DNA of 22,478 nucleotides from a virus. Under the pieces are notes generated by a model. That model worked only from the letters and a program-made list of their open reading frames with translations. It searched no databases and was not told the DNA's origin. The stretch lies in IMG/VR virus record IMGVR_UViG_3300046000_004453, positions 1 through 22,478 of that record. One strand, given 5' to 3'. The position numbers and the translations under genes were made by a program. Below are positions 5,078 to 22,478 of this stretch, piece after piece. Numbering within the stretch: the first letter of the stretch is position 1; every line of letters begins with the position of its first letter.

Positions 5078-5081
5078 TCAA

Positions 5082-5090
5082 CCTTAACCC
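5082..5090 (+). promoter_or_regulatory. CCTTAACCC leader motif before the cement protein gene
   Basis: CCTTAACCC sits in the 22-base gap after the DUF2213 stop, 9 bases before the ATG at 5100. No Shine-Dalgarno sequence is present. The same or a similar word precedes four other major structural genes in this window, which suggests a translation or mRNA-processing signal. Confidence 0.4.
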
Positions 5091-5099
5091 ACCACTAAA

Positions 5100-5597
5100 A
5101 TGGCTCAAGTAGTCCAAAATCAAAATCAGTTCGCACAGACGCCAATCTTGGCTCAAGTGTCGATGCTTCCGAATCCCGACATCGTGTCGGCGCTTCTTAA
5201 CCCGTCTTCCACGGCGGTTCTCCAAGCTGGTTCTTCCGTCAAACTTATCGCTTCTACCGGTCTCGGTACGCAAGTGGTTGTTGATGCAGTTTCCGGCCCC
5301 ACCGACGGCCCAGTGTTCGGCGTCATCGCTTACAATCTCCGCAAGAATCTTTATTCTCCCGGCGATGTTTGCGAAGTCGCGTGCAACCTTTCCTACATCA
5401 CCCTCCTCTCGTCCGCTGCTATCGCTCGCGGTGCGAAAGTTACGGCTACCGCCGCCACCACGGGTAATGACCCAACCGTCGCTACGGTCACGGTTCCAAG
5501 CACCCAGTACGTCACTGGCGTCGCTATCGACCCTGCCTCCGGCGCTGGTTCGCTTATCCGCATCAAAGTTCAGCCCTCGTTCAACGGCGGCGTCTAA
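5100..5597 (+). CDS. Capsid decoration / structural cement protein (probable)
   Basis: 165 aa, beta-rich, with little charge and no signal peptide. The pattern PGDVCEVACNLSYITLLSSAAIARGAKVTATAA, then VTGVAIDPASGAGSLIRIKVQPS resembles small DUF2190-like cement proteins that bind the outside of the capsid lattice ('G...~pvsG.A...a..G..v.V...p'). In phages with DUF1073 portal, DUF2213 and DUF2184 capsid genes, a small abundant protein is usually encoded at exactly this place, which is the main support. The gene has its own leader instead of overlapping its neighbours, as do the other genes expected to be made in high amounts. A short tail-tube-like or other head protein cannot be excluded from sequence alone. 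Confidence 0.72.
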   Translation: MAQVVQNQNQFAQTPILAQVSMLPNPDIVSALLNPSSTAVLQAGSSVKLIASTGLGTQVVVDAVSGPTDGPVFGVIAYNLRKNLYSPGDVCEVACNLSYITLLSSAAIARGAKVTATAATTGNDPTVATVTVPSTQYVTGVAIDPASGAGSLIRIKVQPSFNGGV

Positions 5598-5598
5598 T

Positions 5599-5607
5599 CC
5601 TTAACCC
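5599..5607 (+). promoter_or_regulatory. CCTTAACCC leader motif before the major capsid gene
   Basis: An exact second copy of the 9-base word in the 25-base gap before the capsid ATG (5623), with 15 bases between motif and ATG. The rest of the leader (TATAAAATACTCACC) has no Shine-Dalgarno sequence. TATAAAAT could be read as a -10 element, but no -35 partner is evident in the coding sequence upstream. Confidence 0.4.
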
Positions 5608-5622
5608 TATAAAATACTCACC

Positions 5623-6720
5623 ATGAAAAGCGTATTCTACCAGACCGTTCGCCACAACTCTGCGGGCCAACCCGTAAAGGAACCGGTCTTCCTTAACCAC
5701 ACCAACCGTCTCTCGATCTTCAAAGATCGTAACCAGAGCAACGGTCTTGATCTCCGTCTCAACGCCGTTGGCGATACCGCCGACAGCGCGACCGGTTATC
5801 AAATCGTAATCGACACCCTGACCTACATCAAAAAGCAGGTCAGCGAGCAGAAATTCTACGAAGTTGCTCCAGCCGACTTCATCCCCGTGTCCGTGGGCGA
5901 TGGCGCGTTTGCCGCGAACATCCTCACGAACCGCACCTATCAGGTGGCGGATGATTTCGAGAGCGGTAACATCCGTACCGGCGCTGACAGCTCCCGTCTC
6001 GCTGGTGTCGATGTCGCTATCGACTCCAAGACGATGGCCGTCATCAACTGGGCTAAATCCGTTGATTACTCCATCTTCGACATCGAACAAGCCCTCGTTG
6101 CTAACAACTGGGACCCCATCGAGCAGAAACATCGTTCGCGTAAAAAGAACTGGGATCTCGGTATCCAAAAGATCGCCTTCCTCGGCTCGACGCTCACCCC
6201 GTCCACCGTCCCCGGTCTTTTCACCACGACCTCCGTCAACACCGACACGAGCACCATCCAGAAACTCATCAGCTCGATGAGCGCTTCTGAGTTCTCGACG
6301 TTCGTGCAGAACATCCTTGCGGTGTACTTCGCGAACACGAACAGCACCGTGCTGCCGACCTCCTTCATCATCCCGTATGATGACTACCTCGGCTTGATGA
6401 CCCCTGTCAGCTCGACCTACCCGAACATTCCAAAGCTCAACTACCTTGAGCAAGCGTTCAAGGCGATCTGCGGGCCAAACTTCAAGATCCTGCCCAATGC
6501 CTACGGTACTCCGGCGAACAACGCCGTCGCTGGCTTGAACAAGCACGTTTACTGCTTGCTCCGCTACGACCCAGAGTCCATCCGCATGGACATTCCAGTG
6601 GACTACACCACGACCCAACCAAACAGCGTCAATAACTTCCAGTTCCAAGACGTTGCTTACGGTCAATACACGGGCGTCGGTTTCTACCGCGCTCTTGAAA
6701 CCCTGCTGTTCACGTTCTAA
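5623..6720 (+). CDS. Major capsid protein, DUF2184 family
   Basis: 365 aa. This is the HK97-fold shell protein that builds the icosahedral head. Recognisable family features: an N-terminal arm (residues 1-60), EVAPADFIPVSVGDGAFA, the DSKTMAVINWAKSVDYSIFDIEQA segment, HRSRKKNWDLGIQKIAFLG, and the C-terminal YCLLRYDPESIRMDIPVDY followed by a VAYGQYTGVGFYRALETLLF ending. The length is normal for the family. Codon use is strongly C-ending, as in the sheath and tube genes. A 634-codon open frame on the opposite strand across this gene is a by-product of that codon bias. The stop overlaps the next ATG by one base (TAATG). Confidence 0.9.
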   Translation: MKSVFYQTVRHNSAGQPVKEPVFLNHTNRLSIFKDRNQSNGLDLRLNAVGDTADSATGYQIVIDTLTYIKKQVSEQKFYEVAPADFIPVSVGDGAFAANILTNRTYQVADDFESGNIRTGADSSRLAGVDVAIDSKTMAVINWAKSVDYSIFDIEQALVANNWDPIEQKHRSRKKNWDLGIQKIAFLGSTLTPSTVPGLFTTTSVNTDTSTIQKLISSMSASEFSTFVQNILAVYFANTNSTVLPTSFIIPYDDYLGLMTPVSSTYPNIPKLNYLEQAFKAICGPNFKILPNAYGTPANNAVAGLNKHVYCLLRYDPESIRMDIPVDYTTTQPNSVNNFQFQDVAYGQYTGVGFYRALETLLFTF

Positions 6721-7067
6721 TGAAAGCCCAACCCGAACTCCGTAAAAAAGCTCCTTCCCCCGAGGAGCTTGTCCGCATCTACAATAGCGCCGAAGGTGCC
6801 CTCCGACACGATCTGGTGTTGGCGGACGGCAGCAAAGTTTCATACTTTGTTGCAGGGGGTTCCTTCGGTAAAGTTGCTCCTGAGATTGCTGCGCAATGGA
6901 TGCAGATGTTCCCCAACCGTGTTTCCACGGACAAGGAAGCCATCGAATCCGCCGGTCGCAAAGACGCTGACCTCGCCGCCGCTCAGAAGCGCATCGAAGA
7001 ACTAGAAGCCCAGCTTGCTGCCAAGCCCGCGAAAGCGAGCAAGGCCAAGGCTGAAGCCTCGGTTTAA
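6720..7067 (+). CDS. Small head-associated protein with coiled-coil tail (unknown)
   Basis: 115 aa. Its ATG shares a base with the capsid stop codon. Residues 5-70 look like a small folded domain (ELVRIYNSAEGALRH, then FVAGGSFGKVAPEIAAQWMQMFPNRV). Residues 75-112 form a likely coiled coil or long helix (DLAAAQKRIEELEAQLAA) that ends in a Lys/Ala tail. Genes of this size with a 'g....vP.e.A..l...fP..v' segment commonly lie between capsid and connector genes in tailed phages, but their role is not established to my knowledge. A head-completion or capsid accessory role is a guess from position. Confidence 0.7.
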   Translation: MKAQPELRKKAPSPEELVRIYNSAEGALRHDLVLADGSKVSYFVAGGSFGKVAPEIAAQWMQMFPNRVSTDKEAIESAGRKDADLAAAQKRIEELEAQLAAKPAKASKAKAEASV

Positions 7068-7074
7068 TGTTCCT

Positions 7075-7779
7075 GTGGCCTACATCCTCCCAACCGTCCC
7101 CGATTTCAAAACACAGTTCGTAAGGGATTTCCCTTACGCTGTGCCGGTCGCGGGCGGCGGGAGCGGTGCAGTGCTCACTCCCACCATTGGATCTAACCCC
7201 AATGGTGGCATACTTTCCATCGCGATCACCGCTGGCGGTTCCGGCTATCCCGGAACCCCCACCGTTATCGCCCAGAGCGGCAACGGTATTGGCTCGGCCA
7301 TTACCGCTTCGCTTACCGCCGGTGTTGTCACCGGTGTCACTATCGTCCGTGAGGGTTACGGCTACACCCAAGTACCGACGATCTACGTTTCCAATGGTCG
7401 CGGCGACAATACGGACACCTCGAAGGTGACGGATTTCGACATCGCCAGCGCACAGAACAAAGCCGCCAGTTTCAACATGACCCAATCCCTGTGGAGTTCA
7501 CAGGCGGGTTTCACCATCGCCTACGGTCTTTTGTCCGCGCATTACCTGTGCGAAGACCTCCTCGCGGGCGGCATGGGCATGAACGGCAAAGCCGAATGGC
7601 TCACCCAAAGCAAGACGGTGGGCAACGTCACGGAGTCTTACAGCATCCCCGACCGGATCTTGAAGAGTCCCTACCTTTCCAAGTTGTCGAAAACGACCTA
7701 CGGGGCGCAGTTCTTGGAACTGATCTCGCCTCAACTCATCGGCAATTTCGCGAGCTTCCATCGCGATACCCTGCCGTGA
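7075..7779 (+). CDS. Head-tail connector, DUF4054 type, with inserted Gly-rich beta domain
   Basis: 234 aa from GTG at 7075. The same frame is open upstream to an ATG at 7015 inside the previous gene, but conserved DUF4054 sequence begins at AYILPTVPDFKTQFVRDFPY, so GTG is chosen. Residues 2-23 and about 113-234 make up a complete DUF4054 protein: KVTDFDIASAQNKAASF, LLSAHYLCEDL, SKTVGNVTESYSIPDRIL, TTYGAQFLELISPQLIGN. These proteins are thought to be adaptors under the portal. Between the two parts, residues 24-112 are a Gly-rich beta repeat (GGILSIAITAGGSGYPG...TGVTIVREGYGYTQVPTIYV), a module usually found in phage tail or surface proteins. The stop overlaps the next GTG. Confidence 0.82.
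   Translation: MAYILPTVPDFKTQFVRDFPYAVPVAGGGSGAVLTPTIGSNPNGGILSIAITAGGSGYPGTPTVIAQSGNGIGSAITASLTAGVVTGVTIVREGYGYTQVPTIYVSNGRGDNTDTSKVTDFDIASAQNKAASFNMTQSLWSSQAGFTIAYGLLSAHYLCEDLLAGGMGMNGKAEWLTQSKTVGNVTESYSIPDRILKSPYLSKLSKTTYGAQFLELISPQLIGNFASFHRDTLP
7181..7208 (+). repeat. Perfect inverted repeat inside the connector gene
   Basis: CCACCATTGG (7181-7190) pairs with CCAATGGTGG (7199-7208) around an 8-base loop. It encodes residues 36-45, at the N-terminal edge of the inserted beta domain. It may be chance, an mRNA structure, or a trace of the insertion event. Confidence 0.8.
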
Positions 7780-8237
7780 ACGCTGTCAAAAGAGACTTCT
7801 CAGGCTTCGCCAAGCTGCGCAAGCAGCTCCACGATCTCCAAACCTACAAAGCCGAAGTGGGCTTGTTTGATGACACGGCTTTTCGCAAACCCGGACGTGG
7901 GCAGATCACCGACAATCCGTCTCTCGGTTTCCAACATGAGTTCGGCAACCCTGACACGAATTTGCCCGAGCGGTCGTTTCTGCGGATGCCGCTTATGACG
8001 CAAATGGGCGAAGTCCTAAAGTTCGATTGGCTTCGTCGCATCCGCGCATCTGGCGTCAAATCTGCCGTCAAACTGCTTGGCGTTCTCGGCGAGGAAACCG
8101 TGCAAGAAGCGTTTGCCACCGGCGGATTCGGTCAATGGGCCGCACTCAAGCCTCGCACGATTCAACGCAAAGGTTCCTCGCGTATCCTGATTGATACCGC
8201 TCAACTCCGAAAAGCAGTCACTTCCCGAGTCGTATGA
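7776..8237 (+). CDS. Neck / virion morphogenesis protein, HK97 gp10 / Mu G-like
   Basis: 153 aa from GTG at 7776, which forms a GTGA overlap with the connector stop. The frame is open further upstream, but that part is the shadow of the connector gene. Visible family pattern: EVGLFDD, then GFQHEFGNPDTNLPERSFLRMPL ('~hEfG....iPeRpflr'), then EAFATGGFGQWAALKPRTIQRKGSSRILIDTAQLRKAVTSRV ('W..L...T...Kgs...L..Tg.Lr..it'). This is shared by HK97 gp10-type and Mu-type virion morphogenesis proteins that join head and tail. N-terminal residues are basic and helical. Its order, directly after the DUF4054 connector, supports a neck role. The stop overlaps the following ATG. Confidence 0.82.
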   Translation: MNAVKRDFSGFAKLRKQLHDLQTYKAEVGLFDDTAFRKPGRGQITDNPSLGFQHEFGNPDTNLPERSFLRMPLMTQMGEVLKFDWLRRIRASGVKSAVKLLGVLGEETVQEAFATGGFGQWAALKPRTIQRKGSSRILIDTAQLRKAVTSRVV

Positions 8238-8632
8238 TTCCCAGTCTAGGCATCCCCTCTGCAAACAAAGGTTCGGTCTCCGCTGCGAGTCCGCTGCCCA
8301 ACATGGGCTTTACCATCACCGGATGGTTCCGCCCGATGGAACTGGTGCGCCGCATCACCACGCTAGTTGATCGCGAAGCGCAGGTCGTATTCGTGCCGCT
8401 GCAATGCCAAGGCGTGATCCAGCCGCTGACTGGGCGCGAACTGAAGATCAAGCCCGAAGGTCAACGTGCGTGGAACTGGAATATGCTTCACACGACGCCC
8501 AACGTGAATTTGGCACCGGGCGAAGATTTCACTTTAGACGGTAAAAAATACCGAGTAATGTCGGACAAGGGGTATTCGGATTACGGATACATCTATTACG
8601 AACTCGTCCAAGATTATGTCGTCACAAGTTGA
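8234..8632 (+). CDS. Head-tail joining / collar protein (probable)
   Basis: 132 aa starting at an ATGA overlap. The protein is predicted to be mostly beta: an N-terminal segment (FTITGWFRPMELVRRITT), a middle strand region (GVIQPLTGRELKIKPEGQRAWNW) and the C-terminal PGEDFTLDGKKYRVM followed by GYIYYELVQDY. The pattern 'G...p.....L...peG.R.w......l..gD.i...g..YrV......y...y' is common among small phage neck proteins encoded between the HK97 gp10-like gene and the tail terminator. A head-closure or neck function is inferred from this and from gene order. The gene ends 17 bases inside the next gene. Confidence 0.65.
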   Translation: MIPSLGIPSANKGSVSAASPLPNMGFTITGWFRPMELVRRITTLVDREAQVVFVPLQCQGVIQPLTGRELKIKPEGQRAWNWNMLHTTPNVNLAPGEDFTLDGKKYRVMSDKGYSDYGYIYYELVQDYVVTS

Positions 8633-9134
8633 GTACATCAAAGTCATCGCGGATCTGATCCAAACCCAGATGGATTTGGCTCCTAATCGCGTGTACCTGT
8701 ACAACCAAGCGTGGAACCTTCCGCCAGACGACGGTCTATTTGTAAACGTCGGTTTGATCTCAAAAAAGCCTTTTGGTCTCAGCAAGACTTACCAATCCGT
8801 CACGGAAGAACAGGGCGGACTTTTGCAGGTTCAGTCGATGAACGTGCAGGAAACGTACTCAGTTTTGATTTTTAGCCAGAACAACACCGCCCGCATCCGT
8901 AATCACGAAGTTTTGTACGCCCTCAACGGCGACGCCGCTGAACAGGCTCAAGAACGCTTTTCTTTCAAGATCGGTTATCTGCCCACCTCGCTCATGGACG
9001 TTTCTGAGATCGACGGCGCGTCACGACTTAACCGATACAATTTGACCTTTAACATCCTTTGTGGCTACTCACAGTCACGGAGAGTGGAGTATTACAGCAC
9101 CATTCAAGATCCATCCATTTACACTCAACCTTAA
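8616..9134 (+). CDS. Tail terminator-like protein (probable)
   Basis: 172 aa with ATG at 8616, overlapping the previous gene by 17 bases. The segments VYLYNQAWNLPPDDGLFVNVGLISKKPFG, VQSMNVQETYSVLIFSQNNTARIRNHEVLYALNGD and YNLTFNILCGYSQSRRVEYY show the usual layout of a tail terminator or tail-to-head joining protein in contractile-tailed phages: a short N-terminal helix, a strand pair, a helix around 'R..ev..AL', and a final strand. Tail terminators cap the tube when it reaches the length set by the tape measure. The gene lies directly before the sheath gene, as expected. The assignment is by position and pattern, not by a decisive motif. Confidence 0.65.
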   Translation: MSSQVEYIKVIADLIQTQMDLAPNRVYLYNQAWNLPPDDGLFVNVGLISKKPFGLSKTYQSVTEEQGGLLQVQSMNVQETYSVLIFSQNNTARIRNHEVLYALNGDAAEQAQERFSFKIGYLPTSLMDVSEIDGASRLNRYNLTFNILCGYSQSRRVEYYSTIQDPSIYTQP

Positions 9135-9136
9135 AC
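9129..9136 (+). promoter_or_regulatory. CCTTAAAC leader variant before the sheath gene
   Basis: A CCTTAA core followed by AC, overlapping the TAA stop (9132-9134) of the tail terminator gene and ending 4 bases before the sheath ATG (9141). It is closer to the ATG than the other copies and one base different from CCTTAACC, so it is the weakest member of the set. Confidence 0.25.
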
Positions 9137-9140
9137 TATC

Positions 9141-10268
9141 ATGGCTAACCCAATCGACATCAGTAACGTCGTTACGATTTCCGTGTCCGAAGCTCCTGCG
9201 GGCTTGTCGGATTTTCAAGTCAACAACCTCCTCATTCTTACCCGCGAAACTGCTGTGGTCTCCCCCGGCAATTTTGGCGTCTATCTCAACCCTACCGATG
9301 TCGGTACGGATTGGGGTACTTCCTCCGAAGTGTACGCGATGGCGAATCTTATTTTCTCGCAGCAACCCAACATCATCACCGGTGGTGGTTCGCTCATCAT
9401 CGCCGCTCAAGGTTCCAGCGAAACGCTGGCTGCGGCCATCGCCCGCCTCGAACCCTTGGTGTTTTTCGGCGGCGTGCTCTGGGCGGGATATGCTCCTTCC
9501 GATGGTGACATCCTTGCCGCTGGCGCAGTGGTTCAACCTCTCCGCAAAATGCTGTTCGCTTCTTCGTATCTCGCGGCGTCTGTCGATACTGGCGAGATAT
9601 TTGACGATGTTAAAGCTGCGGGTTACACCTACGTCCGTTGCTTGCTTTACACGGTCAGTGCTCAAGCCGCTCGCTACATGGCGGCAGCTTATGCCGGTCG
9701 TGCTATGTCCACGGATTTCTCGGGTAGCCTTACGACTGCCACGATTCACATGAAAGAGTTGATCGGTGTCTTACCCGATCCGAACATCACCCAAGCGATC
9801 CTCAACAAGTGCAAAACGGTCGGCGCGGACGTGTACATCAACATCGGCGGTCTTTCCAAAGTGTTTTGCACCGGCGGCAACACCTACTACGATTCGGTGT
9901 ACAATCTCACTTGGTTGGTGTTCGCCCTCCAAGTCGCCGGTTTTAACGCCATCGCGACGACCTCGACCAAGCTCCCACAAACCGAGACCGGCATGGCCGT
10001 TCTCCGTGGCGCTTACCTCAATGTCCTCACGCAAGCCGTGGTCAACGGTTACTCCGCCCCCGGCACTTGGAATGGTGCGATCCCATTCGGCAGTCCTGCC
10101 GTCTTTGCTCGCAACGTCGCCCAACTCGGTTTCTACCTCTACTCGGCTCCGGTCAGCACCCAATCCCAAGCGGATCGTTTGGATCGCAAAGCCCCGCTCG
10201 TTCAGATCGCCGTCAAGGAAGCTGGTGCAATCCAATCCAGCTCGGTCATCGTCAACGTCCAAGCCTAA
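9141..10268 (+). CDS. Contractile tail sheath protein, DUF3383 family
   Basis: 375 aa. Sheath subunits surround the tube in helical rings and contract to drive the tube through the cell envelope. DUF3383 is recognised from the N-terminal VVTISVSEAPAGLSDFQVNNLLILT, from AAAYAGRAMSTDFSGSLTTATIHMKELIGVLPDPNIT in the middle, and from the well conserved C-terminal half: ALQVAGFNAIATTSTKLPQTETGM, GAYLNVLTQAVVNGY, GFYLYSAPVSTQSQADR and KEAGAIQSSSVIVNV. The length fits a compact sheath without surface extensions. Its presence settles that the phage has a contractile tail. The gene has its own non-overlapping start, as does the tube gene. Confidence 0.92.
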   Translation: MANPIDISNVVTISVSEAPAGLSDFQVNNLLILTRETAVVSPGNFGVYLNPTDVGTDWGTSSEVYAMANLIFSQQPNIITGGGSLIIAAQGSSETLAAAIARLEPLVFFGGVLWAGYAPSDGDILAAGAVVQPLRKMLFASSYLAASVDTGEIFDDVKAAGYTYVRCLLYTVSAQAARYMAAAYAGRAMSTDFSGSLTTATIHMKELIGVLPDPNITQAILNKCKTVGADVYINIGGLSKVFCTGGNTYYDSVYNLTWLVFALQVAGFNAIATTSTKLPQTETGMAVLRGAYLNVLTQAVVNGYSAPGTWNGAIPFGSPAVFARNVAQLGFYLYSAPVSTQSQADRLDRKAPLVQIAVKEAGAIQSSSVIVNVQA

Positions 10269-10277
10269 CCCTTAACC
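10269..10277 (+). promoter_or_regulatory. CCCTTAACC leader motif before the tube gene
   Basis: It lies in the 19-base gap after the sheath stop, 10 bases before the ATG at 10288. It contains CCTTAACC exactly. The rest of the leader, AAATCCAACC, has no Shine-Dalgarno sequence. Confidence 0.4.
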
Positions 10278-10287
10278 AAATCCAACC

Positions 10288-10743
10288 ATGTCTGTCGTCT
10301 CTCTTACTGGTAACGATACCATCGTAATCGCGGGCCGAGTCCTTACGGATTTCGGTGATGCCGATAACGCCACCTTGGAGTTCCCGAATGATCTCGCCGC
10401 CGTCAAGGTGGGCAAGAACGGTAACGCCATTTACGCTCTTAACGCCACCGGTCGCATGGCCGATGTCGTGCTTCGCCTCATTCGCGGCTCGAATGACGAT
10501 GCCTTCCTCAATAGCCTCCTAGCCAGTCAAAACGCCAATTTCGCGGCTACCGTGCTTCTCACGGGTCAGTTCGTGAAACGGGTCGGCAATGGTCTGGGCG
10601 GCGTGATGAGCGATACCTACTTCACGTCTGGCGGCATCTTCTCGAAAGCTGTCAACGCCAAGTCGAACGTCGAAGGTGACACCGAGCAATCGCTCGCGAT
10701 CTACACCTTGAAGTTCTCGAACGCTGACCGCGCTCAATTGTAA
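10288..10743 (+). CDS. Tail tube protein (DUF3277-like)
   Basis: 151 aa. Tube proteins stack as hexamers to form the DNA channel inside the sheath. Seen here: an N-terminal strand (TIVIAGRVLTDFGDADNATLEF), LAAVKVGKNGNAIYALNATGRMADVVLRLIRGSNDDAFLNSLL, and a C-terminal strand pair ending in LAIYTLKFSNADR. This resembles the DUF3277 pattern ('kv.~g~~G~...a.n..~~~~vtltL...S..n..L..L'), which normally follows DUF3383 sheath genes. Size and position between sheath and chaperone agree. The gene was expected to be highly expressed, and has a separate leader and strongly C-ending codons. Confidence 0.82.
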   Translation: MSVVSLTGNDTIVIAGRVLTDFGDADNATLEFPNDLAAVKVGKNGNAIYALNATGRMADVVLRLIRGSNDDAFLNSLLASQNANFAATVLLTGQFVKRVGNGLGGVMSDTYFTSGGIFSKAVNAKSNVEGDTEQSLAIYTLKFSNADRAQL

Positions 10744-10746
10744 CGT

Positions 10747-11160
10747 ATGAGCGAGCCGATCACGCTTAAAAGTGGGGCTATCCTCGTTCTGGGGACGCCC
10801 TCCTTTGCCCACGGGATGAAGCTGTTCAAGGTCATCGTCAACGAACTCAAACTCGTTGACCTCGACATGAGCACGCTCGACCTGCGGGCCTTTGCGGGTA
10901 AGGACATCAACAGTCTGAAGAACGCTATTTTCCAGCTCCTCGGTTCCGATGCGCTGGAGAACGCGATCTTCGACTGTGCGATGAAATCGACCTACAACAG
11001 TTTGAAGATCACTCGCGACACGTTCACCCCCGATGAAGCACGCGCCGACTATCTGCCGGTAGCGTGGGAGGTGATTAAGCACTCGCTGCGCCCTTTTTTT
11101 GCGAACCTAGACTTGTCGTTCTTGAGCGCCGACAAGCCGCAGCAAAGCGACCCGCAGTAA
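10747..11160 (+). CDS. Tail assembly chaperone, short (G-like) product
   Basis: 137 aa in the zero frame, starting 3 bases after the tube stop. Tail assembly chaperones bind the tape measure and recruit tube subunits; typically the gene is read in two forms, with a small share of ribosomes slipping back one base near the end. Here the protein opens with ITLKSGAILVLGTPSFAHGMKLFKVIVNELK, a beta then helical layout. Codon 116 onward reads CCT TTT TTT, giving the heptamer T_TTT_TTT at 11094-11100 in the correct phase for slippage. Normal termination is at 11158-11160. The C-terminal residues after the slip site (ANLDLSFLSADKPQQSDPQ) are low-complexity, as is common for the short product. Confidence 0.82.
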   Translation: MSEPITLKSGAILVLGTPSFAHGMKLFKVIVNELKLVDLDMSTLDLRAFAGKDINSLKNAIFQLLGSDALENAIFDCAMKSTYNSLKITRDTFTPDEARADYLPVAWEVIKHSLRPFFANLDLSFLSADKPQQSDPQ

Positions 11161-11333
11161 AGATCACAATGGACAATGCGTTGTTCATCGCCCTCCGGCT
11201 ATCGAAGGAGGGCTTTGGCAGCGTAGAAGCCATTTTGGGTATGAGCTTGGACGTGGTTCTTGCCACGTTGGAGTATTCGACATTTCTTGCCGAGTACGAG
11301 GAAACTGCTATCGAGCTTAACAAAGAACCGTGA
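10747..11333 (+). CDS. Tail assembly chaperone, -1 frameshift (GT-like) product
   Basis: Predicted fusion of 195 aa: codons 1-118 in the zero frame (to 11100), then a one-base step back and 77 codons from 11100 to 11330, with stop at 11331-11333. The -1 frame has no stop codon between the slip site and 11331, so the fusion is possible without gaps. The added part ends LATLEYSTFLAEYEETAIELNKEP, the sort of ending seen in the T part of lambda-like and Mu-like chaperone fusions. A separate ATG at 11169 within that frame would give a 54-aa protein (MDNALFIALRLSKEG...) if read on its own. The tape measure GTG overlaps the stop (11330-11333). Shown by sequence phase, not by experiment. Confidence 0.75.
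11094..11100 (+). promoter_or_regulatory. Slippery heptamer for -1 ribosomal frameshift
   Basis: Seven T residues, read in the zero frame as (CC)T TTT TTT, so they form X_XXY_YYZ in the exact phase needed for both tRNAs to re-pair after a one-base backward slip. The site lies 60 bases before the zero-frame stop. Confidence 0.75.
11112..11136 (+). promoter_or_regulatory. Possible frameshift-stimulating hairpin
   Basis: CTTGTCG (11112-11118) pairs perfectly with CGACAAG (11130-11136) around an 11-base loop. It starts 11 bases after the slippery heptamer, within or slightly beyond the usual range for stimulatory structures. A short 7-pair stem is modest, so its role is uncertain. Confidence 0.45.
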
Positions 11334-12619: not shown

Positions 12620-12620
12620 C

Positions 12621-13424: not shown

Positions 13425-13426
13425 TC

Positions 13427-14350
13427 ATGCAAAAATTTAATCGGGTATATTCGTTATCTGTCCAAGTGGATAACGGGGTAAATACTTCCCCGTTACGTCC
13501 GGAGTTTTTTGCCAATAAAAGCGTAACGATAACTCTGCCATTTACGATTGAATTTCAGATTACTCGAAAAGCGTTAGCCACAGCTCAAACGGCGTCTTTT
13601 AAACTTTTCAATCTGGCAGAAGCTACCCGCAACGCTCTTCAGAAAGATGCGTTCAATACCACGCAACTTCGGGCTATTCAATTTCGTGCCGGATACGAAT
13701 CCCCCGCAGGGGATTTCATGCCTTTGGTTTTTAACGGGACGGTGTTATCGGCTAACTCGTATCGTAAGGGGGTAGATTTTATTACGGAGATCGAGGCTTT
13801 TGATGGGGGTTGGCAGATGAATAACATCAACCTCATTTCGATGAGTACTGCTCCGGGCACTACGGCAGCTCAGTCATTGCGGGATCTTTCGTATCAATTA
13901 ACGGGGCTTTCGGGCGAACCTATCATCGGCAGTTACCCCGTAAGAAATAAACGAGGTGAAGTACTTTTTGGAAACGCTTGGCAGATTATCCAACTAAAAA
14001 GTAACTCCCAAGCGATCATCGACAATGGTCAGGTAAAAGCCCTTAACCTAAATGAGATCATCGTAGGCGAGATCCCCGTTATTTCTTCAGCCACGGGTTT
14101 GCTTGGCAGTCCTCGACGGGGAAATGCGACTCTGGAATTTGACATGATTTTTGAACCACGGCTCACCATTTATCAGTTGGTGAGATTGGACAGCACTACT
14201 CAGCCGCTGTACAACCGGAATTGGAAAGTCATGGGTATCGAGCATCAAGGGACAATTTCCCCTCGGATTAGCGGAGATGCGTTGACCAAAGTTACCCTTC
14301 TTTTTACCAACACTGATTTTGTTCCGATCACCGCTACCTTAGTCCAATGA
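13427..14350 (+). CDS. Baseplate hub protein, gp27/Mu gp44-like
   Basis: 307 aa. The hub is a trimer that links tube to spike. Characteristic pattern seen in residues 35-110: ITLPFTIEFQITRKALATAQTASFKLFNLAEATRNAL, then IQFRAGYESPAGDFMPLVFNGTV, that is 'i.F.i.k......n...i.i.Nls..tr..l' followed by '..AGY......~i~~G.i'. The middle portion (residues 150-215) is variable. The C-terminal half has VISSATGLLGSPRRGNATLEFDMIFEPRLTIYQLVRLDS and KVMGIEHQGTI, which match hub proteins of many myoviruses. The gene is moderately AT-rich relative to the capsid genes. It stops inside an ATGA overlap with the spike gene. Confidence 0.82.
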   Translation: MQKFNRVYSLSVQVDNGVNTSPLRPEFFANKSVTITLPFTIEFQITRKALATAQTASFKLFNLAEATRNALQKDAFNTTQLRAIQFRAGYESPAGDFMPLVFNGTVLSANSYRKGVDFITEIEAFDGGWQMNNINLISMSTAPGTTAAQSLRDLSYQLTGLSGEPIIGSYPVRNKRGEVLFGNAWQIIQLKSNSQAIIDNGQVKALNLNEIIVGEIPVISSATGLLGSPRRGNATLEFDMIFEPRLTIYQLVRLDSTTQPLYNRNWKVMGIEHQGTISPRISGDALTKVTLLFTNTDFVPITATLVQ

Positions 14351-14979
14351 TTAACGAACCCCCTATTTCCTCGGTCGTTGAGCCGGATATGCGGAGACTG
14401 TTGGATAATTATATGACTCTTTCAGCTCTAAAGCTGAACTGCCACCGGATCGGCACCATCGTTTCTTTTGATTCTACTAAGCAGACGGCATCCGTCCAGA
14501 TCGCTGCCCTTGCAGTTTTTGGCGACAAGACTGTGCCGTATCCCGTCCTGACTCAATGTCCGGTGTTCGTACCCTCTGGCGGTAACGGATGCTTGACCAT
14601 GCCGGTCAGTCCGGGCGATTCCTGCCTCGTCCTGTTTAACGACCGCGACATCGACAACTGGTACGAGTCGGGCGCGGTTACGGCTCCCAACACTGCACGC
14701 ACGCACGACCTAAGCGATGGACTGGTGATCGTGGGGTTCAGGCATCAGGCCAACCCCATCGTCGATTACTCGGTGGACGTGGAAATGCGACACGGCACCG
14801 CCATTGTCGGACTGGAAGATAGCGGCAAAATAAGTATCCGCAATCAAGATACTACCTTGAAAAACGTGCTGACTACCCTCATAACCGCGCTAAACAAACT
14901 AGATGAGAAGTCACCCAGCGGCAGTGCAGCCGTACAGATTGCTGACGTGAATACGCTCATTTACCAACTCCTCAAATGA
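14347..14979 (+). CDS. Baseplate spike protein, gp138/Mu gp45-like
   Basis: 210 aa from an ATGA overlap. This is the central spike at the tail tip. Residues 30-140 match the gp138 N-terminal (OB-fold) domain: IGTIVSFDSTKQTASVQI, YPVLTQCPVFVPSGGNGCLTMPVSPGDSCLVLFNDRDIDNWYESG, then ARTHDLSDGLVIVG. Residues 145-170 (MRHGTAIVGLEDSGKISIRNQD) are the start of a short beta-helix needle. The protein ends in a helix (LKNVLTTLITALNKLDEKSP) after which family members often have more needle repeats, so the spike is short. No His-x-His iron site of the kind seen in phi92 gp138 tip domains is visible. The gene ends in an ATGA overlap with the tailspike gene. Confidence 0.85.
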   Translation: MINEPPISSVVEPDMRRLLDNYMTLSALKLNCHRIGTIVSFDSTKQTASVQIAALAVFGDKTVPYPVLTQCPVFVPSGGNGCLTMPVSPGDSCLVLFNDRDIDNWYESGAVTAPNTARTHDLSDGLVIVGFRHQANPIVDYSVDVEMRHGTAIVGLEDSGKISIRNQDTTLKNVLTTLITALNKLDEKSPSGSAAVQIADVNTLIYQLLK

Positions 14980-17900
14980 AGATCATCACGGGCCTATCGG
15001 AGCAACCGAAACAACAGTCCACGCTCGTCCTTGCCGACGGGACTCGGGCAGTTTGGTCGATCTCCTACGTCTCACAGCAGACGGGTTGGTTCTACGATCT
15101 GAGTTGGAATGGCACGGTGATCGCCACCGGTCAGCGCATGGTGTCCTCCCCGAACATCCTTCGGCAGTACATCAACAAAATCTCTTTCGGCATCGCGGTC
15201 GTTTCGCCCAATCAGCTCGAACCGACGACCCAGACGGCGTTGGTCGATGGCACCGTCACCTGCTATCTCCTCGAAGGCGCGGATCTTCAAGCGATCGAGA
15301 CGACGATATTTAACGCCCCCGCCGGTCAAGTGCAGCCCGTTGGCTCGACGACTGCGGGTTTGCCCGTCGTGGTGCTACCGGCGAACTGGGGGCCAGCGGG
15401 CGGGGATCTCGCGTATGCGTATCCCAATCCCCAAGTCATCGCCATGCACGACGGCACCGGTCAGCGGTTGGCCTTTGGTACGGTTGCGGATAACCAGTTT
15501 CTTAAACGAGTCGGAGCAACCGTCGTCGGGGCTACCGTTGCTCCCGGCACTGGCGATGTCACCGGCCCAGCTTCCTCGACCATCGGCAATGTCGCGCTGT
15601 GGGCAGATGCAGCCGGTACGGAGATTGCGGATGGCGGCACTCTCGGTACGGCGGCGTTCGCCAACAGTTCTTCTTTTCTCGGCGCTACTGCCGCCGCCTC
15701 GGGCGACCTGTCCGGTAATTACCCCGGCCCGAATGTCGCAGCCATCCACACTACCTCTGACGGCGGAACCCAGCTCACGATTGGCGCGATTGCCGACGGA
15801 GAGTATCTTGTTCGCAGCGGTGGTACTTTAATTGGCAGCGTCCCCAGTGGTGCTGGTGACGTGTTCGGCCCCAGCTCGACGGTAACAGTCGGCACTGTGG
15901 CGCTATTCGCTACAACCGACGGCAAGACCCTCGGGCCATCGAGCATCACGCTAGGCACCATCGCTTCTCAAGCGGCAAGCAACGTCACGATCACCGGCGG
16001 CTCGATTGCCGGTGCGGTGATTACGTCGGGTGTGGGTGGCTCGATCAGCGGCGTACCGATCAACGGTTCGACCATTGGTGCCGTTACTGCCAGCAGTGGC
16101 AGATTTACTTCCGTAGTTTCAACCGGCAACATCTCCGCTTCTGGAACGATTACTGCCACCGGAGCGATTGGAGCTTCTAACTTTAGCGGCACTTCCAGTG
16201 GCACTAATACGGGAGATCAAACGATCTCAATCATTGGCGATGTTACAGCGTCGGGCAGCACCGGCGTTCTCACCTCTACCGTCACCCGTATTAACGGTCA
16301 GGCTTTGGCGACGCTGGCAACCGGTATCCTCAAAAACACTACTAGCACCGGCGTTCCCAGCATCGCGATTGCTACTGATTTTCCGACGCTTAATCAAAAC
16401 ACTACGGGCAATGCGGCTACGGCTACCGCTCTGGCAAACGCCCGCACGATTGGTGGCATCAGTTTCAACGGTACGGACAATGTTACGTCATTCCCTGTGC
16501 CCGGGCCTATCGGTGTCACTACACCAGCGGCAGGTAATTTTACGTCTATCGGCGTTACGACACAAGGTACCGGCGCGTTCACGACATTGAGCGCGAGTGG
16601 AACGACAACTATTGGGACTAACGCAGCGGCTGGTCGCCTTATTATAAATGGCCCATCAACCGCTTCAACAGGTGCAACTTTAACTGGTCAATTTGCTGGA
16701 ACGGATAAATTTATTATTGGCACTCAAAATGCAATTTATGGCGGAACAAGTGCTAATCTAATTATTCGCAGCATTTCGGATAATGTTTTAATCGGCGCGG
16801 CAGGAACAGAGATGGCTACCTTTTCCTCCACCGGACTCGCTGTTACTGGCGCGTTGTCGAGCACCACAGGAGCCAACTTTGCGACGAGCAGCGGAGCGGT
16901 TAATATTGGCACGGCCACTTCTGTAACAGATACAAGGCTCACCGTTCAGGCTACTGGGGATTACTCTCCCGCGATTTCTGTAAGAGGAAATGCAAGTGCC
17001 GGAAATTGGGCGCGAATGGATTTAGTTAATCCCAATACGGCTGGGCCGATGATCTTTGCTCAAGTCGCCAGTGGTGAAACCATTTTTCGCAACGAGGGAA
17101 CCAATTCATCAATCTATCTTCAAACCGCTGGTGGCGTAACTCGCGCCACGGTTTCAACCACCGGCCTCGCCGTGACTGGGGCGTTGAGCGCGACTGGAAT
17201 TGTTACTGCTGGTGACTATTTTAACGCAACTGCGGCGGACAATGGTTATCGTTTAAGCGGCACAACAATTATTGGCGGCAGCGGAACTAACCTTTTTATT
17301 AAAGGAGCAACTTCAGTAAATTTTCAGGTTCCAAATGGCACAACGGTTGGCACCTTCTCCTCCACCGGACTCGCGGTGACGGGAGACGTATATCCTTCAA
17401 CTCTTACTTTTAATCGAGGCGGGGGAGCTGCATGGGATAGCAACGGTATTCGTTTTCAAATTGATGGAACGACGTATGGAAAATTAGCACTTAATGACGT
17501 TGGTGTTTTGAGAACCGACTGCTCTATTATGTCCACCGGACTTTCGGTGACGGGCAACGTGTCTGCTTCTGGATTGCTTACCGGAACCCTAACCAACTCC
17601 ACGGGTCTTCCTCTTTCTACGGGCGTTACTGGCTTTCTTCCAATCGCCAATGGTGGCACCGGACTTACGTCTCTTGGTACGGCGGGACAAGTATTGCGAG
17701 TCAATGCTGGCGCAACGGCTTTGGAATACGCTACCATCAGCAGCGGCAGTGGTACGGTTACGAGTGTTTCGGTTGTAAACGCTAACGGCTTTGATGGCAC
17801 GGTTGCAACCCCAACGGTAGCTGCCGCCATCACCTTAAAGACGACGGTCAATGGAATCTTAAAGGGCAATTCAACCAGCGGGGTTGTTAGCGCGGCTACC

Positions 17901-19472
17901 TCTGGAACAGATTACGCTCCGGCTACCTCGGGTAGCTCAATTCTTTATGGCAACAGCGCGGGCGGATTTAGCAACGTCACCGTTGGAACGGGGCTTACTT
18001 TTACCAGTGGTACTCTTACGGCTACGGGCGGTAGCAGCAGTGGGGTATTTAACATCGTAAGTTATGGCGCGTCTCCTTCTGCTAGTACCGCCACAAATAC
18101 CACCGCTATTCAAAATGCTATCAACGCTGCTTGCAGCGCCACTAATGGCGGTGCGGTGTATGTTCCTGCGGGGAGCTATAATACTAACAAATTAACGGTT
18201 TCTTCTGCGGGTAAAGCCATCGTTATTTTTGGAGATGGGGATTGTTCTATACTTCGGGCACAAGATTCCACGGGGCTATTGGTATTCACCGATACTTCTA
18301 ATTACGCTACTTTTGGGGTACACGATTTATTTTTGCAATGCGATGTATCTTGTTTGGCTTTGAAATTTAATTGCCAACCTACTGCCGCTATTCATGTCCG
18401 AAATTTAGTACAAATAAACAGGATAACAGTTACTGCAGGAAATACAAATTGGACGGGAGCTATAGAAGCCAGCAATGCCTCCAATATGTTAATAAGTAAT
18501 TCCCTTTTTGAAGGGGGAAGTCAATCGGTGGTATTGGGAAATACTGCAGTAAAATTTACTTCTATTTGCGTAAATACCCTCATATCAAATTGTAACTTTA
18601 ATTTTTGGACGTATGGTATTTATTGCGACGTTTATCAAGAAGGCGTGTTTATTTCTAATAGCTATTTTATTGCCAATTTAATAAGCGCATATTTTAGCCG
18701 ATCTAGTGATGCTCTCCGCATTGCTTCGCTACAATTTACTAACTGTAATTTTGATGCTAGAGCGGGTAGTTTCTCTAGCACAACTTCCATGAATTTGCCC
18801 AGTGTGGGAGGATCAGTTACTATGACTATCCCCACAAATTTAACCTCAATCGTTACGGCTGCGGGTCAATATATGCGGGCTATTGCCGATGGCTCAAATT
18901 ATTTTGAATTTCAAATTTCTGGATATACTCCCTCAACTGGAGTAATTACCGGAACAGCTACAAACGTCACTGGAACCCCCGGCAGCGGCCCATATGCGTC
19001 TTGGGGAATACAAACTATGAACAATGTTTATAGCATCCAGACCAACAATGTTCAAGGACTGCTGTGTAATAATTGTTATTTTATTGGGGGATCTGATACC
19101 AGTGGTAATCTTCGGCTTACTCAAACTCAGTTTTCTGCCATAACGGGAAGTAAATTTTTTAATAGCGGAGCATACGGAATTAGTTTAGAAAACTCCGATC
19201 CAGCCGTATATGTCCCAACTAGCCCCACTGATCCAACTCTTCAACAAAGTGCTTGCAACGCCGTAGCCATAACTGGAAATAGTTTCTATGGTTCGGCATA
19301 TTCTGTAAAAGTTGCGTCGAAGAATATGAACATCGTTTTTCAAAATAACGTGAGATCTTTGGCTTATGGCGGTAATACCGTTCCTTATCAATCCGCATAC
19401 ATGGCTCCGGTGAATCTAAATTCCTCAGATGCCAGCCCCGGAGTTAGCTTCGGAAATTATATCCAACCATGA
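14976..19472 (+). CDS. Baseplate plug domain fused to a giant tailspike with beta-helix
   Basis: 1498 aa in one frame, the largest gene in the window. Residues 1-108 look like the stand-alone baseplate plug protein (TLVLADGTRAVWSISYVSQQTGWFYDL...NILRQY...DGTVTCYLLEG). Residues 142-330 hold two 90-100 residue repeats, followed by shaft repeats of common phage type: TGNAATATALANARTIGG, four STGLxVTG units, FLPIANGGTGLTSLGTAGQVL and GTVTSVSVVNANGFDGTV. From about residue 1023 the protein starts a pectate-lyase-like right-handed beta-helix (FNIVSYGASPSAST...TTAIQNAINAAC...GGAVYVPAGSY), a fold used by host-polysaccharide depolymerase spikes. Catalytic residues cannot be placed. The beta-helix DNA is far more AT-rich than its neighbours. 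It starts and ends in ATGA overlaps. Confidence 0.8.
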   Translation: MKIITGLSEQPKQQSTLVLADGTRAVWSISYVSQQTGWFYDLSWNGTVIATGQRMVSSPNILRQYINKISFGIAVVSPNQLEPTTQTALVDGTVTCYLLEGADLQAIETTIFNAPAGQVQPVGSTTAGLPVVVLPANWGPAGGDLAYAYPNPQVIAMHDGTGQRLAFGTVADNQFLKRVGATVVGATVAPGTGDVTGPASSTIGNVALWADAAGTEIADGGTLGTAAFANSSSFLGATAAASGDLSGNYPGPNVAAIHTTSDGGTQLTIGAIADGEYLVRSGGTLIGSVPSGAGDVFGPSSTVTVGTVALFATTDGKTLGPSSITLGTIASQAASNVTITGGSIAGAVITSGVGGSISGVPINGSTIGAVTASSGRFTSVVSTGNISASGTITATGAIGASNFSGTSSGTNTGDQTISIIGDVTASGSTGVLTSTVTRINGQALATLATGILKNTTSTGVPSIAIATDFPTLNQNTTGNAATATALANARTIGGISFNGTDNVTSFPVPGPIGVTTPAAGNFTSIGVTTQGTGAFTTLSASGTTTIGTNAAAGRLIINGPSTASTGATLTGQFAGTDKFIIGTQNAIYGGTSANLIIRSISDNVLIGAAGTEMATFSSTGLAVTGALSSTTGANFATSSGAVNIGTATSVTDTRLTVQATGDYSPAISVRGNASAGNWARMDLVNPNTAGPMIFAQVASGETIFRNEGTNSSIYLQTAGGVTRATVSTTGLAVTGALSATGIVTAGDYFNATAADNGYRLSGTTIIGGSGTNLFIKGATSVNFQVPNGTTVGTFSSTGLAVTGDVYPSTLTFNRGGGAAWDSNGIRFQIDGTTYGKLALNDVGVLRTDCSIMSTGLSVTGNVSASGLLTGTLTNSTGLPLSTGVTGFLPIANGGTGLTSLGTAGQVLRVNAGATALEYATISSGSGTVTSVSVVNANGFDGTVATPTVAAAITLKTTVNGILKGNSTSGVVSAATSGTDYAPATSGSSILYGNSAGGFSNVTVGTGLTFTSGTLTATGGSSSGVFNIVSYGASPSASTATNTTAIQNAINAACSATNGGAVYVPAGSYNTNKLTVSSAGKAIVIFGDGDCSILRAQDSTGLLVFTDTSNYATFGVHDLFLQCDVSCLALKFNCQPTAAIHVRNLVQINRITVTAGNTNWTGAIEASNASNMLISNSLFEGGSQSVVLGNTAVKFTSICVNTLISNCNFNFWTYGIYCDVYQEGVFISNSYFIANLISAYFSRSSDALRIASLQFTNCNFDARAGSFSSTTSMNLPSVGGSVTMTIPTNLTSIVTAAGQYMRAIADGSNYFEFQISGYTPSTGVITGTATNVTGTPGSGPYASWGIQTMNNVYSIQTNNVQGLLCNNCYFIGGSDTSGNLRLTQTQFSAITGSKFFNSGAYGISLENSDPAVYVPTSPTDPTLQQSACNAVAITGNSFYGSAYSVKVASKNMNIVFQNNVRSLAYGGNTVPYQSAYMAPVNLNSSDASPGVSFGNYIQP
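15399..15965 (+). repeat. Tandem ~100-residue repeat in the tailspike N-terminal shaft
   Basis: Two diverged copies: residues 142-230 and 242-330. They align as GGDLAYAYPNPQVIAMHD / SGDLSGNYPGPNVAAIHT, ADNQFLKRVGATVVGA / ADGEYLVRSGGTLIGS, GDVTGPASSTIGNVALWAD / GDVFGPSSTVTVGTVALFAT and GTLGTAAF / ITLGTIAS. Spacing and order of motifs are the same in both copies. Confidence 0.8.
16827..17562 (+). repeat. Four dispersed STGLxVTG repeats in the tailspike shaft
   Basis: TCCACCGGACT-type units at 16827, 17158, 17361 and 17532 encode SSTGLAVTGALS, STTGLAVTGALS, SSTGLAVTGDVY and MSTGLSVTGNVS. Each precedes or follows a variable segment, so they mark the joints of a modular shaft, and their DNA similarity gives sites for recombination. 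Confidence 0.8.
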
Positions 19473-19831
19473 TCTTTCGAGCCATAGATTCCACTAACGA
19501 CTGGTCGTTCGGCAACGGCGTGCAAAGCTACTTTCGCAACGAGAAAGCCATTGCCGCCAACTTGAAGACCCGACTGCAAGTCTGGCTGGGCGAGTGCTTC
19601 TTTGCCACAGCGGATGGCATCGACTGGCGCAATCTGCTTGGGGGTAAGAACCCCGCCGCTCAGCAAGGCATCGTCCTGCAATGCCGTACCGTCATCGTGC
19701 AAAGTTACGGAGTGGTGCGGGTCAATTCCGTGACACCTACCTTCAATGCCGCTTCGCGAGCCTTGACCGTGACCTACAACATTGACACGATCTTTTCTAG
19801 AAACGTGACCAACGCCGTTCAACTTCTCTGA
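19469..19831 (+). CDS. Baseplate wedge / sheath initiator, gp25/Mu gp46-like
   Basis: 120 aa starting at ATGA (19469-19472). The N-terminal pattern DWSFGNGVQSYFRNEKAIAANLKTRLQVWLGECFFATADGIDWRNLLGGKN matches gp25-like and Mu gp46-like wedge proteins ('wlfG......~~~AI...I.tRL.~~~gE~ff~~~~GiDw~~ll~'). The C-terminal part (QCRTVIVQSYGVVRVNSVTPTFNAASRALTVTYNIDTIF) is the usual second half. In T4, gp25 links wedges to the first sheath ring. The gene lies directly before baseplate J as expected. GC content returns to the general level (35 of 60 bases in 19561-19620) immediately after the AT-rich tailspike. Confidence 0.85.
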   Translation: MIFRAIDSTNDWSFGNGVQSYFRNEKAIAANLKTRLQVWLGECFFATADGIDWRNLLGGKNPAAQQGIVLQCRTVIVQSYGVVRVNSVTPTFNAASRALTVTYNIDTIFSRNVTNAVQLL

Positions 19832-19833
19832 CC

Positions 19834-21018
19834 ATGCCTAACGCCATCGACAGTTCCGGTCTGACGATTCAGACAACTCCCGAGATCATCGCGGAGATCC
19901 TTGACGGCGCTCCCGGCTATCCGGGTATGCGCCAGATCTACGGTGCGGACATCAACGTCGATGCCAACTCGCCCGACGGTCAGATGGTGAACATCATCGC
20001 GCAAGCGAAGACGGACGTGCTGGAACTCTCACAGCAAATTTACAATTCGTTCGATCCAGACAAAGCGGTGGGCACGTCCCTCGATGCCCGCTGCGCGATC
20101 AACGGTGTCATCCGTAATGCTGGCACCAAAACAATTCAAAGCGTCGTCGTCACGACGGATCGGGCGCTGACATTGCCCGGCCTCGATACCTCCGTCACGC
20201 CGTTCACGGTTGCGGATACGAGCGGCAATCAATACCAGCTCGTCTCGACGTATGCCTTCGTAGGCGCGGCTTCGACCTCGTTAGTTTTTCAAGCGGCGTT
20301 GATTGGTGCGGTCAGCTCTCTGCCCAACACGATCATCTCCATTGTGACGGTTACGCTGGGCGTTACCGGCGTCAACAATCCCGCGACCTACACGACGTTG
20401 GGTCTCAACGAAGAAACCGATTACGCTCTGCGCATCCGTCGTCAGAAGTCGGTCGCTTTGCCCAGCCAAGGCTATCTCGAAGGATTGATTGGCGCACTGC
20501 TCGACACGACCGACGTCACCGAGGCAATGGTGTACGAGAACGACACTAACACGATTGACGCCAACGGCATCCCCGGTCACTCGATTTGGTGCATCGTGAA
20601 AGGCGGCACGAACCAAGCCGTTGCCAATGCGATCTACGTCAAACGCAATGCCGGTTGCGGCATGAAGGGAACCGTTACGGTGTCCGTGCCTCAAGTAGAT
20701 GGAACGTACTTTCCCATCAAATTTGATCGGCCTACTTCCCAAAACCTTTACATCTCGTTCGACATTATTGCGGTCACAGGTTCGGTCGATGCCAACTTCA
20801 TCCGCAGCCAGATCCTCGCTCAACTCAGCTACACGATTGCTCAACCTGCCGTGGCTTCCGAAATCACTTCATTGGTCGAGTCGATTGCGCCCAATGGTTC
20901 AATCAGCGACATGGGTGTGAGCGACGATGGTATCACTTACGTTTCTCTCCTCGATACCGCCGCCATTAACAATCTCTGGGCTTTAGCTTCTGCCCGAATC
21001 ATTATCAATGGCAGCTAA
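19834..21018 (+). CDS. Baseplate J-like protein
   Basis: 394 aa starting 2 bases after the wedge stop. Baseplate J proteins (Mu gp47, P2 gpJ) form the outer wedge ring. The N-terminal LTIQTTPEIIAEILDGAPGYPGMRQIYGADINVDANSPDGQMVNIIAQAKTDV is typical ('Gp....~I~~~~~~~~~~~~g~~~~~~~~sp~gql~~i~A'), as are TSLDARCAINGVIRNAGT, GLNEETDYALRIRRQKS, YLEGLIGALLDTTDVTEAMVYEND and the C-terminal region ANFIRSQILAQLSYTIAQPAVASEITSLVESI. The length is normal. It overlaps the next gene by 11 bases. Confidence 0.88.
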   Translation: MPNAIDSSGLTIQTTPEIIAEILDGAPGYPGMRQIYGADINVDANSPDGQMVNIIAQAKTDVLELSQQIYNSFDPDKAVGTSLDARCAINGVIRNAGTKTIQSVVVTTDRALTLPGLDTSVTPFTVADTSGNQYQLVSTYAFVGAASTSLVFQAALIGAVSSLPNTIISIVTVTLGVTGVNNPATYTTLGLNEETDYALRIRRQKSVALPSQGYLEGLIGALLDTTDVTEAMVYENDTNTIDANGIPGHSIWCIVKGGTNQAVANAIYVKRNAGCGMKGTVTVSVPQVDGTYFPIKFDRPTSQNLYISFDIIAVTGSVDANFIRSQILAQLSYTIAQPAVASEITSLVESIAPNGSISDMGVSDDGITYVSLLDTAAINNLWALASARIIINGS

Positions 21019-21955
21019 TCTCGCCAACGTAATTTCGTATTACTGCGATCTGCTTTTGCTCCAGTACAAATGGCAGACCCGTGCGCGGGCTAACATCGCC
21101 ATTTACTCCAAGCAAGCGGTCGGAGACTTGGTGATTCAAGACATCGACGACGCTTTCAACATCAACACGGCTATCGGCGTCCAGCTCGACACGCTGGGCA
21201 AATACGTCGGTGTTCCTCGCAACTCTGGCCCGCCCGAGGATCTGCCCTACTATGGTTTTTGGGATTATCTTATTACGGTTCCGTCTGAACAAAACACGAA
21301 CGGGTTTCGCGATTACACCAATACCTCGACCAACGCTGCGGCGATATTTTACAACTATTCGGATTACGGCACCCGCAACACGGATCTCACGGATGCAGCG
21401 TATCGCCTAGCAATCCAGCTTAAAATCATCCTCAACTCCAACAACAGCACGTTGGCGTCGATTCAAGATTACCTGCATACCTTTTTCCCCGGTCTCGTCC
21501 TCTTGGCGGATAACGCTGACATGACCATGACGTACACGATCCAAGAAGGTACGCCACTTCCCTTGGAGACGTTGAAGGCTTTCCTGCCTAAACCAATGGG
21601 CGTCAGTCTTACCTTCCTTACCCTGACTGCTTCGTTGTCGTCCTCGACCTCAACTAAAACGGTGACGGGTGGTTCGGGTACTATTACGATTACCACGGAC
21701 ACGCCTATCTCAGTAACTGTTACCAATGGTGTCGAACCCTATTCGTACAACTGGCAGTTGCTTACTTCAAGTGGTGCCACTTCTGGATATGTTACTGAGG
21801 CAACTGTCCCCGATGGATCTTCGACTTACTTTACCCGTATTGCCCCTCTTGATACCACGAACGTCACTACTTGGCGTTGCGTAGTAACTGATTCTCGCGG
21901 ACTCATCGCCACTGCTCAACCTTTGACGGTCACTCTGGCGAATCAGAATGTTTAG
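21008..21955 (+). CDS. DUF2612 (gp48-like) baseplate wedge protein with C-terminal Ig-like domain
   Basis: 315 aa. Residues 1-205 read as DUF2612: INTAIGVQLDTLGKYVGVPRN, GFWDY, LTDAAYRLAIQLKIILNSNNSTLASIQDYLHTFFPGLVLLADNADMTMTYTI and FLPKPMGVSLTF. This protein follows baseplate J in many contractile-tailed phages and is the likely gpI/gp48 counterpart that connects baseplate wedge and fibre. Residues 217-315 are an added beta-rich domain (ITITTDTPISVTVTNGVEPYSYNWQLL, then TTWRCVVTDSRGLIATAQPLTVTL) with the Trp and Cys spacing of Ig-like or PKD-like domains. Such surface domains are often exposed on virions and may bind polysaccharide weakly. The overlap with baseplate J is 11 bases. Confidence 0.82.
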   Translation: MAANLANVISYYCDLLLLQYKWQTRARANIAIYSKQAVGDLVIQDIDDAFNINTAIGVQLDTLGKYVGVPRNSGPPEDLPYYGFWDYLITVPSEQNTNGFRDYTNTSTNAAAIFYNYSDYGTRNTDLTDAAYRLAIQLKIILNSNNSTLASIQDYLHTFFPGLVLLADNADMTMTYTIQEGTPLPLETLKAFLPKPMGVSLTFLTLTASLSSSTSTKTVTGGSGTITITTDTPISVTVTNGVEPYSYNWQLLTSSGATSGYVTEATVPDGSSTYFTRIAPLDTTNVTTWRCVVTDSRGLIATAQPLTVTLANQNV

Positions 21956-21971
21956 TAATCCGCTTGAACTA

Positions 21972-21979
21972 ACTTAACG
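21972..21979 (+). promoter_or_regulatory. CTTAAC-type leader motif before the fibre gene
   Basis: ACTTAACG in the 44-base gap, 20 bases before the ATG at 22000. It shares only the CTTAAC core with the others and is further from the start. No Shine-Dalgarno sequence is present in this gap, and I see nothing else in it. Confidence 0.25.
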
Positions 21980-21999
21980 TCTCCACTAATTCGATACCC

Positions 22000-22478
22000 A
22001 TGTCCAAGATCTCGCGTGCGATTCAGAAAATTTTCGGCGGTTCTCTGACCCCCTCGGGCAACATTGCTCAGTTTGGCTCGCTCGCGGCTGGCTCCATCGC
22101 GTACTCCAGCGATCCCGCTGTCATCCAAGCCCTGAGTCAGTACCTCAATGGTTGGTCGGCGGCGGTGCAAGGCTCCAACTCTCCCGCGCTGCAAGACCGC
22201 AACGCTCTCGACTTCTTGTTCTCCCGTCAGCTCGCGTACCTCATGCAAGCGGGTTTGGCCGAGTGGGACAGTGCCACGACATATTACACGGGTTCATGGT
22301 GTCAGGTTGACGGCGTGCCTTACGTCTCGCTTACCGATACCAATCTCAACAACAACCCCACGACCGAGACGAACGACTGGCGCTTGGTCGCGACGACGCT
22401 GGCTCCCTCGATGCCGGGCGTCGCTAAAGCGTGGATCATCTTTAACGGTCAAGGCGGCGGCAGCACTTACGATTCGTA
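22000..22478 (+). CDS. Tail fibre protein, N-terminal part (partial)
   Basis: Open from ATG 22000 to the window end, 159 codons visible. The pattern KIFGGSLTPSGNIAQFGSLAAGSIAYSSDPAVIQALSQYLNGWSAAVQGSNSPALQDRNALDFLFSRQLAYLMQAGLAEWDSATTYYTGSW is characteristic of the base of phage tail fibres ('F...p...~~.FGS..ag...~s.dp..Iqs...w..GW..A...~n.Pa..d.NAl.~~~~~QlaYl~Q.GipeWd..t.Y'), followed by a carbohydrate-binding-like stretch (YVSLTDTNLNNNPT). The position after the DUF2612 baseplate gene is the normal place for the main fibre. The receptor-binding tip is outside the window. Confidence 0.85.
   Translation, partial: MSKISRAIQKIFGGSLTPSGNIAQFGSLAAGSIAYSSDPAVIQALSQYLNGWSAAVQGSNSPALQDRNALDFLFSRQLAYLMQAGLAEWDSATTYYTGSWCQVDGVPYVSLTDTNLNNNPTTETNDWRLVATTLAPSMPGVAKAWIIFNGQGGGSTYDS

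Follow-up and report, generated by a model that had tools for sequence, protein, structure and literature searches.

Why should one eight-base word stand before several structural genes of a phage, in leaders that offer the ribosome no Shine-Dalgarno (SD) site? The window analysed here, a 22,478-base IMG/VR virus record, carries the structural module of a contractile-tail phage, in which Pfam and PHROG matches give the order portal, Mu F-like, DUF2213, cement, major capsid, sheath, tube, baseplate and fibres. On general grounds of phage biology, four of these products (the cement, capsid, sheath and tube proteins) are taken here to be the high-copy virion proteins. A glycosyltransferase-like gene (PHROG match) at 763-1446 on the minus strand separates the left-end genes from the portal gene. 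Within the DUF2213 gene, a direct repeat (GTTAAAGAAAACGCCGC..., twice) was seen by eye only at 4786-4890, and positions 14976-19472 encode a fibre-like protein of 1498 aa with repeated segments, the sole PHROG match of which is weak and covers residues 7-91.

A sequence-only reading had placed the exact word CCTTAACC before the cement, capsid and tube genes, and it is indeed found there, on the plus strand. The cement gene (5100-5597), encoding a cement/decoration-type head protein with a weak, below-cut-off match to Pfam Phage_cement and a PHROG match to head scaffolding, is preceded by a G-free leader at 5078-5099, with the word at 5082-5089 and its TAACC core at -15 to -11 relative to the start codon. 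The major capsid protein gene (5623-6720; Pfam Major_capside, PHROG major head protein) follows a G-free leader at 5598-5622 with the word at 5599-5606 and the core at -21 to -17, which is out of register. The third leader, at 10269-10287 and also G-free, has the word at 10270-10277, one base from the position first reported (10269), and the core again at -15 to -11; the gene behind it (10288-10743) encodes a tube-type protein with a PHROG match to virion structural proteins and the conserved place after the sheath gene. Near forms had been claimed before two further plus-strand genes. The one at 9129, before the tail sheath gene (9141-10268; DUF3383, PHROG tail sheath), stands with one mismatch; the start region of this gene (9111-9140) has no G in 30 nt, consists mostly of the coding end of the upstream gene and contains CAACC at -15 to -11 (9126-9130). 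The other, at about 21972, does not appear among the one-mismatch matches and so has at least two mismatches; in the G-poor fibre leader (21956-21999) ACTTAACG is a two-mismatch form of the word, out of register.

Five exact copies of CCTTAACC, all on the plus strand, are present in the window against 0.42 expected for both strands along its whole length. Three of them are the leader copies (5082, 5599 and 10270), and two are located inside genes, outside any leader: at 5691-5698 in the capsid gene and at 14041-14048 in the gene beginning at 13427. With one mismatch allowed, the count (19 versus 13.8 +/- 3.8) is near chance. For the four plus-strand intergenic leaders of 15-60 nt, an 8-mer common to three of them has P = 0.0006 in mononucleotide and 0.0013 in dinucleotide shuffles. 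The suggestion that the word is confined to bulk genes is confounded, since the other plus-strand genes mostly overlap or abut and hence have no leader.

The start regions of the four bulk genes are set apart by more than the word. In the 30 nt before the ATG the cement, capsid and sheath genes have no G and the tube gene has one, versus 2-7 in the other 18 starts; the four are thus exactly the four lowest of 22 starts, an outcome with a chance of 1/7315. Their predicted unpaired probability is 0.73-0.82, compared with 0.33-0.69 for the remaining 18. Neither the portal nor the fibre leader is as G-poor as those of the bulk genes. The sheath start, with a gap of only 6 nt to the upstream gene, indicates that the G-free composition is not merely due to an intergenic gap, because the region is mostly coding and yet G-free. 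As had been claimed, the bulk-gene leaders lack SD sites.

The bulk-gene leaders can probably be considered SD-independent translation start regions, unstructured, A/C-rich and tuned for the production of bulk proteins. The roughly 30 nt before the ATG of each of the four bulk genes would provide an A/C-rich, nearly G-free and weakly folded stretch in which adenines stand near -14/-13 and -3, a C precedes the ATG at -1 and a YAACC core often occupies -15 to -11. The 30S subunit of a host not reliant on SD pairing would load on this single-stranded leader RNA, perhaps helped by contacts of protein S1 around the upstream adenines. In such a scheme CCTTAACC would be the version that the lineage of this phage has come to repeat and not an obligatory signal. 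An effect of the leaders on translation is what their composition and predicted folding suggest.

The comparison with related phages, for which a simple script was used to call gene starts, as in the host genomes, separates the word from its surroundings. In L001-L005, with capsid proteins 98-99% identical to that of the window, the cement leader retains CCTTAACC, but the capsid leader has CCCTCAACC in its place, the tube leader carries CCCTTAACC or CCTTTAACC, and that of the sheath gene CAACCATAAAC. In L014 (72%) CCTTTAACCC is found before the capsid gene. From the leaders of more distant relatives the word is mostly absent, while their A/C-rich composition is retained; still, the cement leader of L053 contains exact CCTTAACC in the same register as that of the window, and a 37-kb relative has two copies, both in leaders. 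A count against shuffled sequence speaks for the word in the leaders of the window, and its conservation among related phages largely does not. At the sequence level the conserved unit is the whole start region and not the exact word.

Wider scans for the exact word were also performed. As a class-wide signal it was rejected, because in most of 188 genomes from the class to which the closest MAG belongs it does not exceed a mirrored control, itself a rough one in which the ATG is reversed too. Global use by viruses was rejected as well: among the matches listed, a leader context was found for 7 of 81 matches and 4 of 80 mirrored ones (Fisher p = 0.53). A dedicated translation enhancer or processing site consisting of the exact word, as had been proposed, is therefore not upheld, since the word varies among relatives 98-99% identical, is mostly absent from distant ones, generally does not exceed the control in the class of the closest MAG and, among the viral matches listed, is no commoner in leader context than the mirrored word. 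What survives of the proposal is the distinct character of the leaders before bulk structural genes, which appear best read as bearing a host-type signal for non-SD initiation.

The start regions of the relatives share the properties seen in the window. The 27 intergenic leaders pooled from eight non-redundant related phages contain 5.5% G versus 26.5% overall, and only one of them has an SD-like site; YAACC is over-represented in them (15 versus 6.0 expected). Their start regions are more accessible than tight starts (p = 5e-7), with an unpaired probability of 0.677 versus 0.569 in shuffled sequences (p = 9e-4). In 30 ortholog leaders, A is present at -14 in 73%, at -13 in 60% and at -3 in 63%, but at -12 and -11 in only 33%, and C occupies -1 in 90%; the shuffle P of the largest A column, at -14, is 0.0015, a significance that is approximate because the leaders share ancestry and are not independent. 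TAA is found at -15 in 11 of the 30 leaders, where it is partly the upstream stop codon. The tube leaders of L014, L045, L049 and L011 each have a 12-nt gap, and the upstream TAA stop is therefore at -15.

SD-like sites are not foreign to the related phages. They occur in 9 of 23 leaders of the group comprising L028, L031, L011, L043 and L020, in which homologous capsid and tube leaders have an SD-like AAGGA or GGAG in some phages and none in others. Judged from these leaders, close relatives appear to have switched from one initiation mode to another.

The closest genome matches to the capsid are mixed, two of eight being Opitutae MAGs, and a capsid profile search of 373 genomes of the candidate host order found nothing beyond the MAG already known. 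The start context resembles that of Opitutae-order genomes and of P8625, the one phage isolate found for which an Opitutae-type host is known (PMC4642752). We infer a host of Opitutae type (Verrucomicrobiota) with reserve, because the Opitutae MAG contig L020 has an SD-like site ahead of its capsid gene and sister phages use such sites too. Some Verrucomicrobia are reported to be SD-scarce (PMC10783764). SD sites are at background level and leaders are G-poor in G100 and G124, two genomes of the candidate order sampled over 1.34 and 0.82 Mb, respectively. TTAACC is mildly in excess in their leaders (11 versus 2.3 expected in G100, 5 versus 1.6 in G124), most clearly in operon-internal genes, which speaks for translation over promoters. 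The last 30 nt before G100 atpD, groEL and rpoC contain 0, 1 and 2 G, respectively, and those before an EF-Tu-like gene of G124 contain one; CCTTAACC is absent from these four leaders. All these effects are much weaker than those in the phages. None of the 25 intergenic leaders of P8625 has an SD-like site; they contain 0-10 G, the coat gene alone having none at -30 to -1, and TTTAACC extends across the upstream stop codon in the coat leader region. YAACC is weakly enriched in this phage (5 versus 2.3, P = 0.07).

A different reading takes the word or its YAACC core as a sequence-specific recruiter of the ribosome, acting through CTTAACCC:GGGUUAAG pairing with helix 37 of 16S rRNA or through S1 binding, as for the T7 epsilon. 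The word does repeat beyond composition, by the shuffles of the window leaders given above. Of the pooled leaders, four have CCTTAACC versus 0.06 expected and 15 have YAACC, in the excess already noted; AACC starts most often at -14 (seven times in the 30 ortholog leaders), and CTTAACCC has an 8-nt match in a conserved segment of 16S rRNA. Against this, the 16S matches of the three word leaders are no better than those of shuffles (P 0.10, 0.33 and 0.76), CAACC variants in the same register disrupt the match, the word in the capsid leader is 6 nt out of register, and neither most relatives' leaders nor the four host-order genes named above have it, so that a specific recruiter is unlikely. We are equally doubtful of a position-locked form of the idea, in which YAACC at -15 to -11 within a G-free context would serve Opitutae and their phages as a non-SD motif for ribosome recruitment, its TAA often supplied by the upstream stop codon.

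It is less probable still that composition is neutral, the spacers having drifted to low G and the word being chance or copied sequence. Apart from its two copies inside genes, the word is indeed limited to places with a spacer, and the ortholog leaders have common ancestry. Drift in spacers would not, however, readily account for a sheath region that is G-free though mostly coding, for portal and fibre leaders that are less G-poor, for the coat gene being alone at zero G among the P8625 leaders, or for leaders less folded than their own shuffles. An internal promoter or RNA-processing site before each bulk gene is very improbable: the position before these genes and TATAAAAT in the capsid leader would suit it, but TATAAAAT is not kept in the 98-99% identical relatives, promoter-like sites (sigma-70-type only) number 1 versus 2.5 in shuffles and terminator-like sites 5 versus 6.2 between 4900 and 10800, and an Rfam scan gave no match.

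SD-independent initiation on unstructured, G-free leaders is already known in other bacteria, and the phage pattern is probably a variant of it. In Flavobacterium johnsoniae, A at -3, -6 and -12/-13 together with low structure raises translation (PMC6847099). This Bacteroidetes system resembles the phage leaders in the lack of SD, the adenines at -3 and about -12/-13, and the low structure; the phage leaders differ in their richness in C and A, in the C at -1 and in a YAACC core at about -15 to -11. They also agree with the unstructured-start model for SD-less mRNAs (PMC3121790), in which the start is less folded than controls and no general replacement motif is expected, except that the phage pattern centres on a small number of bulk virion genes and includes a repeated word. 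The epsilon enhancer of T7 gene 10, UUAACUUUAA (described in PMC9590205), is likewise a UUAAC-type word in the leader of a phage structural gene, but it lies upstream of a strong SD, whereas the leaders described here have none and 16S pairing is unsupported. P8625 offers a parallel in its SD-less intergenic leaders and in the G-free last 30 bases of its coat leader, with TTTAACC immediately upstream, spanning the previous stop; it is nevertheless another phage, with a coat gene annotated as P22-type and only weak YAACC enrichment overall.

How start codons are chosen and graded without SD sites is poorly understood outside Bacteroidetes, and the bulk genes of this phage provide natural examples of putatively strong non-SD leaders in a phylum with few genetic tools. 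Simple G-free leaders are suggested for expression vectors, and the homologous capsid leaders with and without SD sites would allow the switch of initiation mode to be studied.
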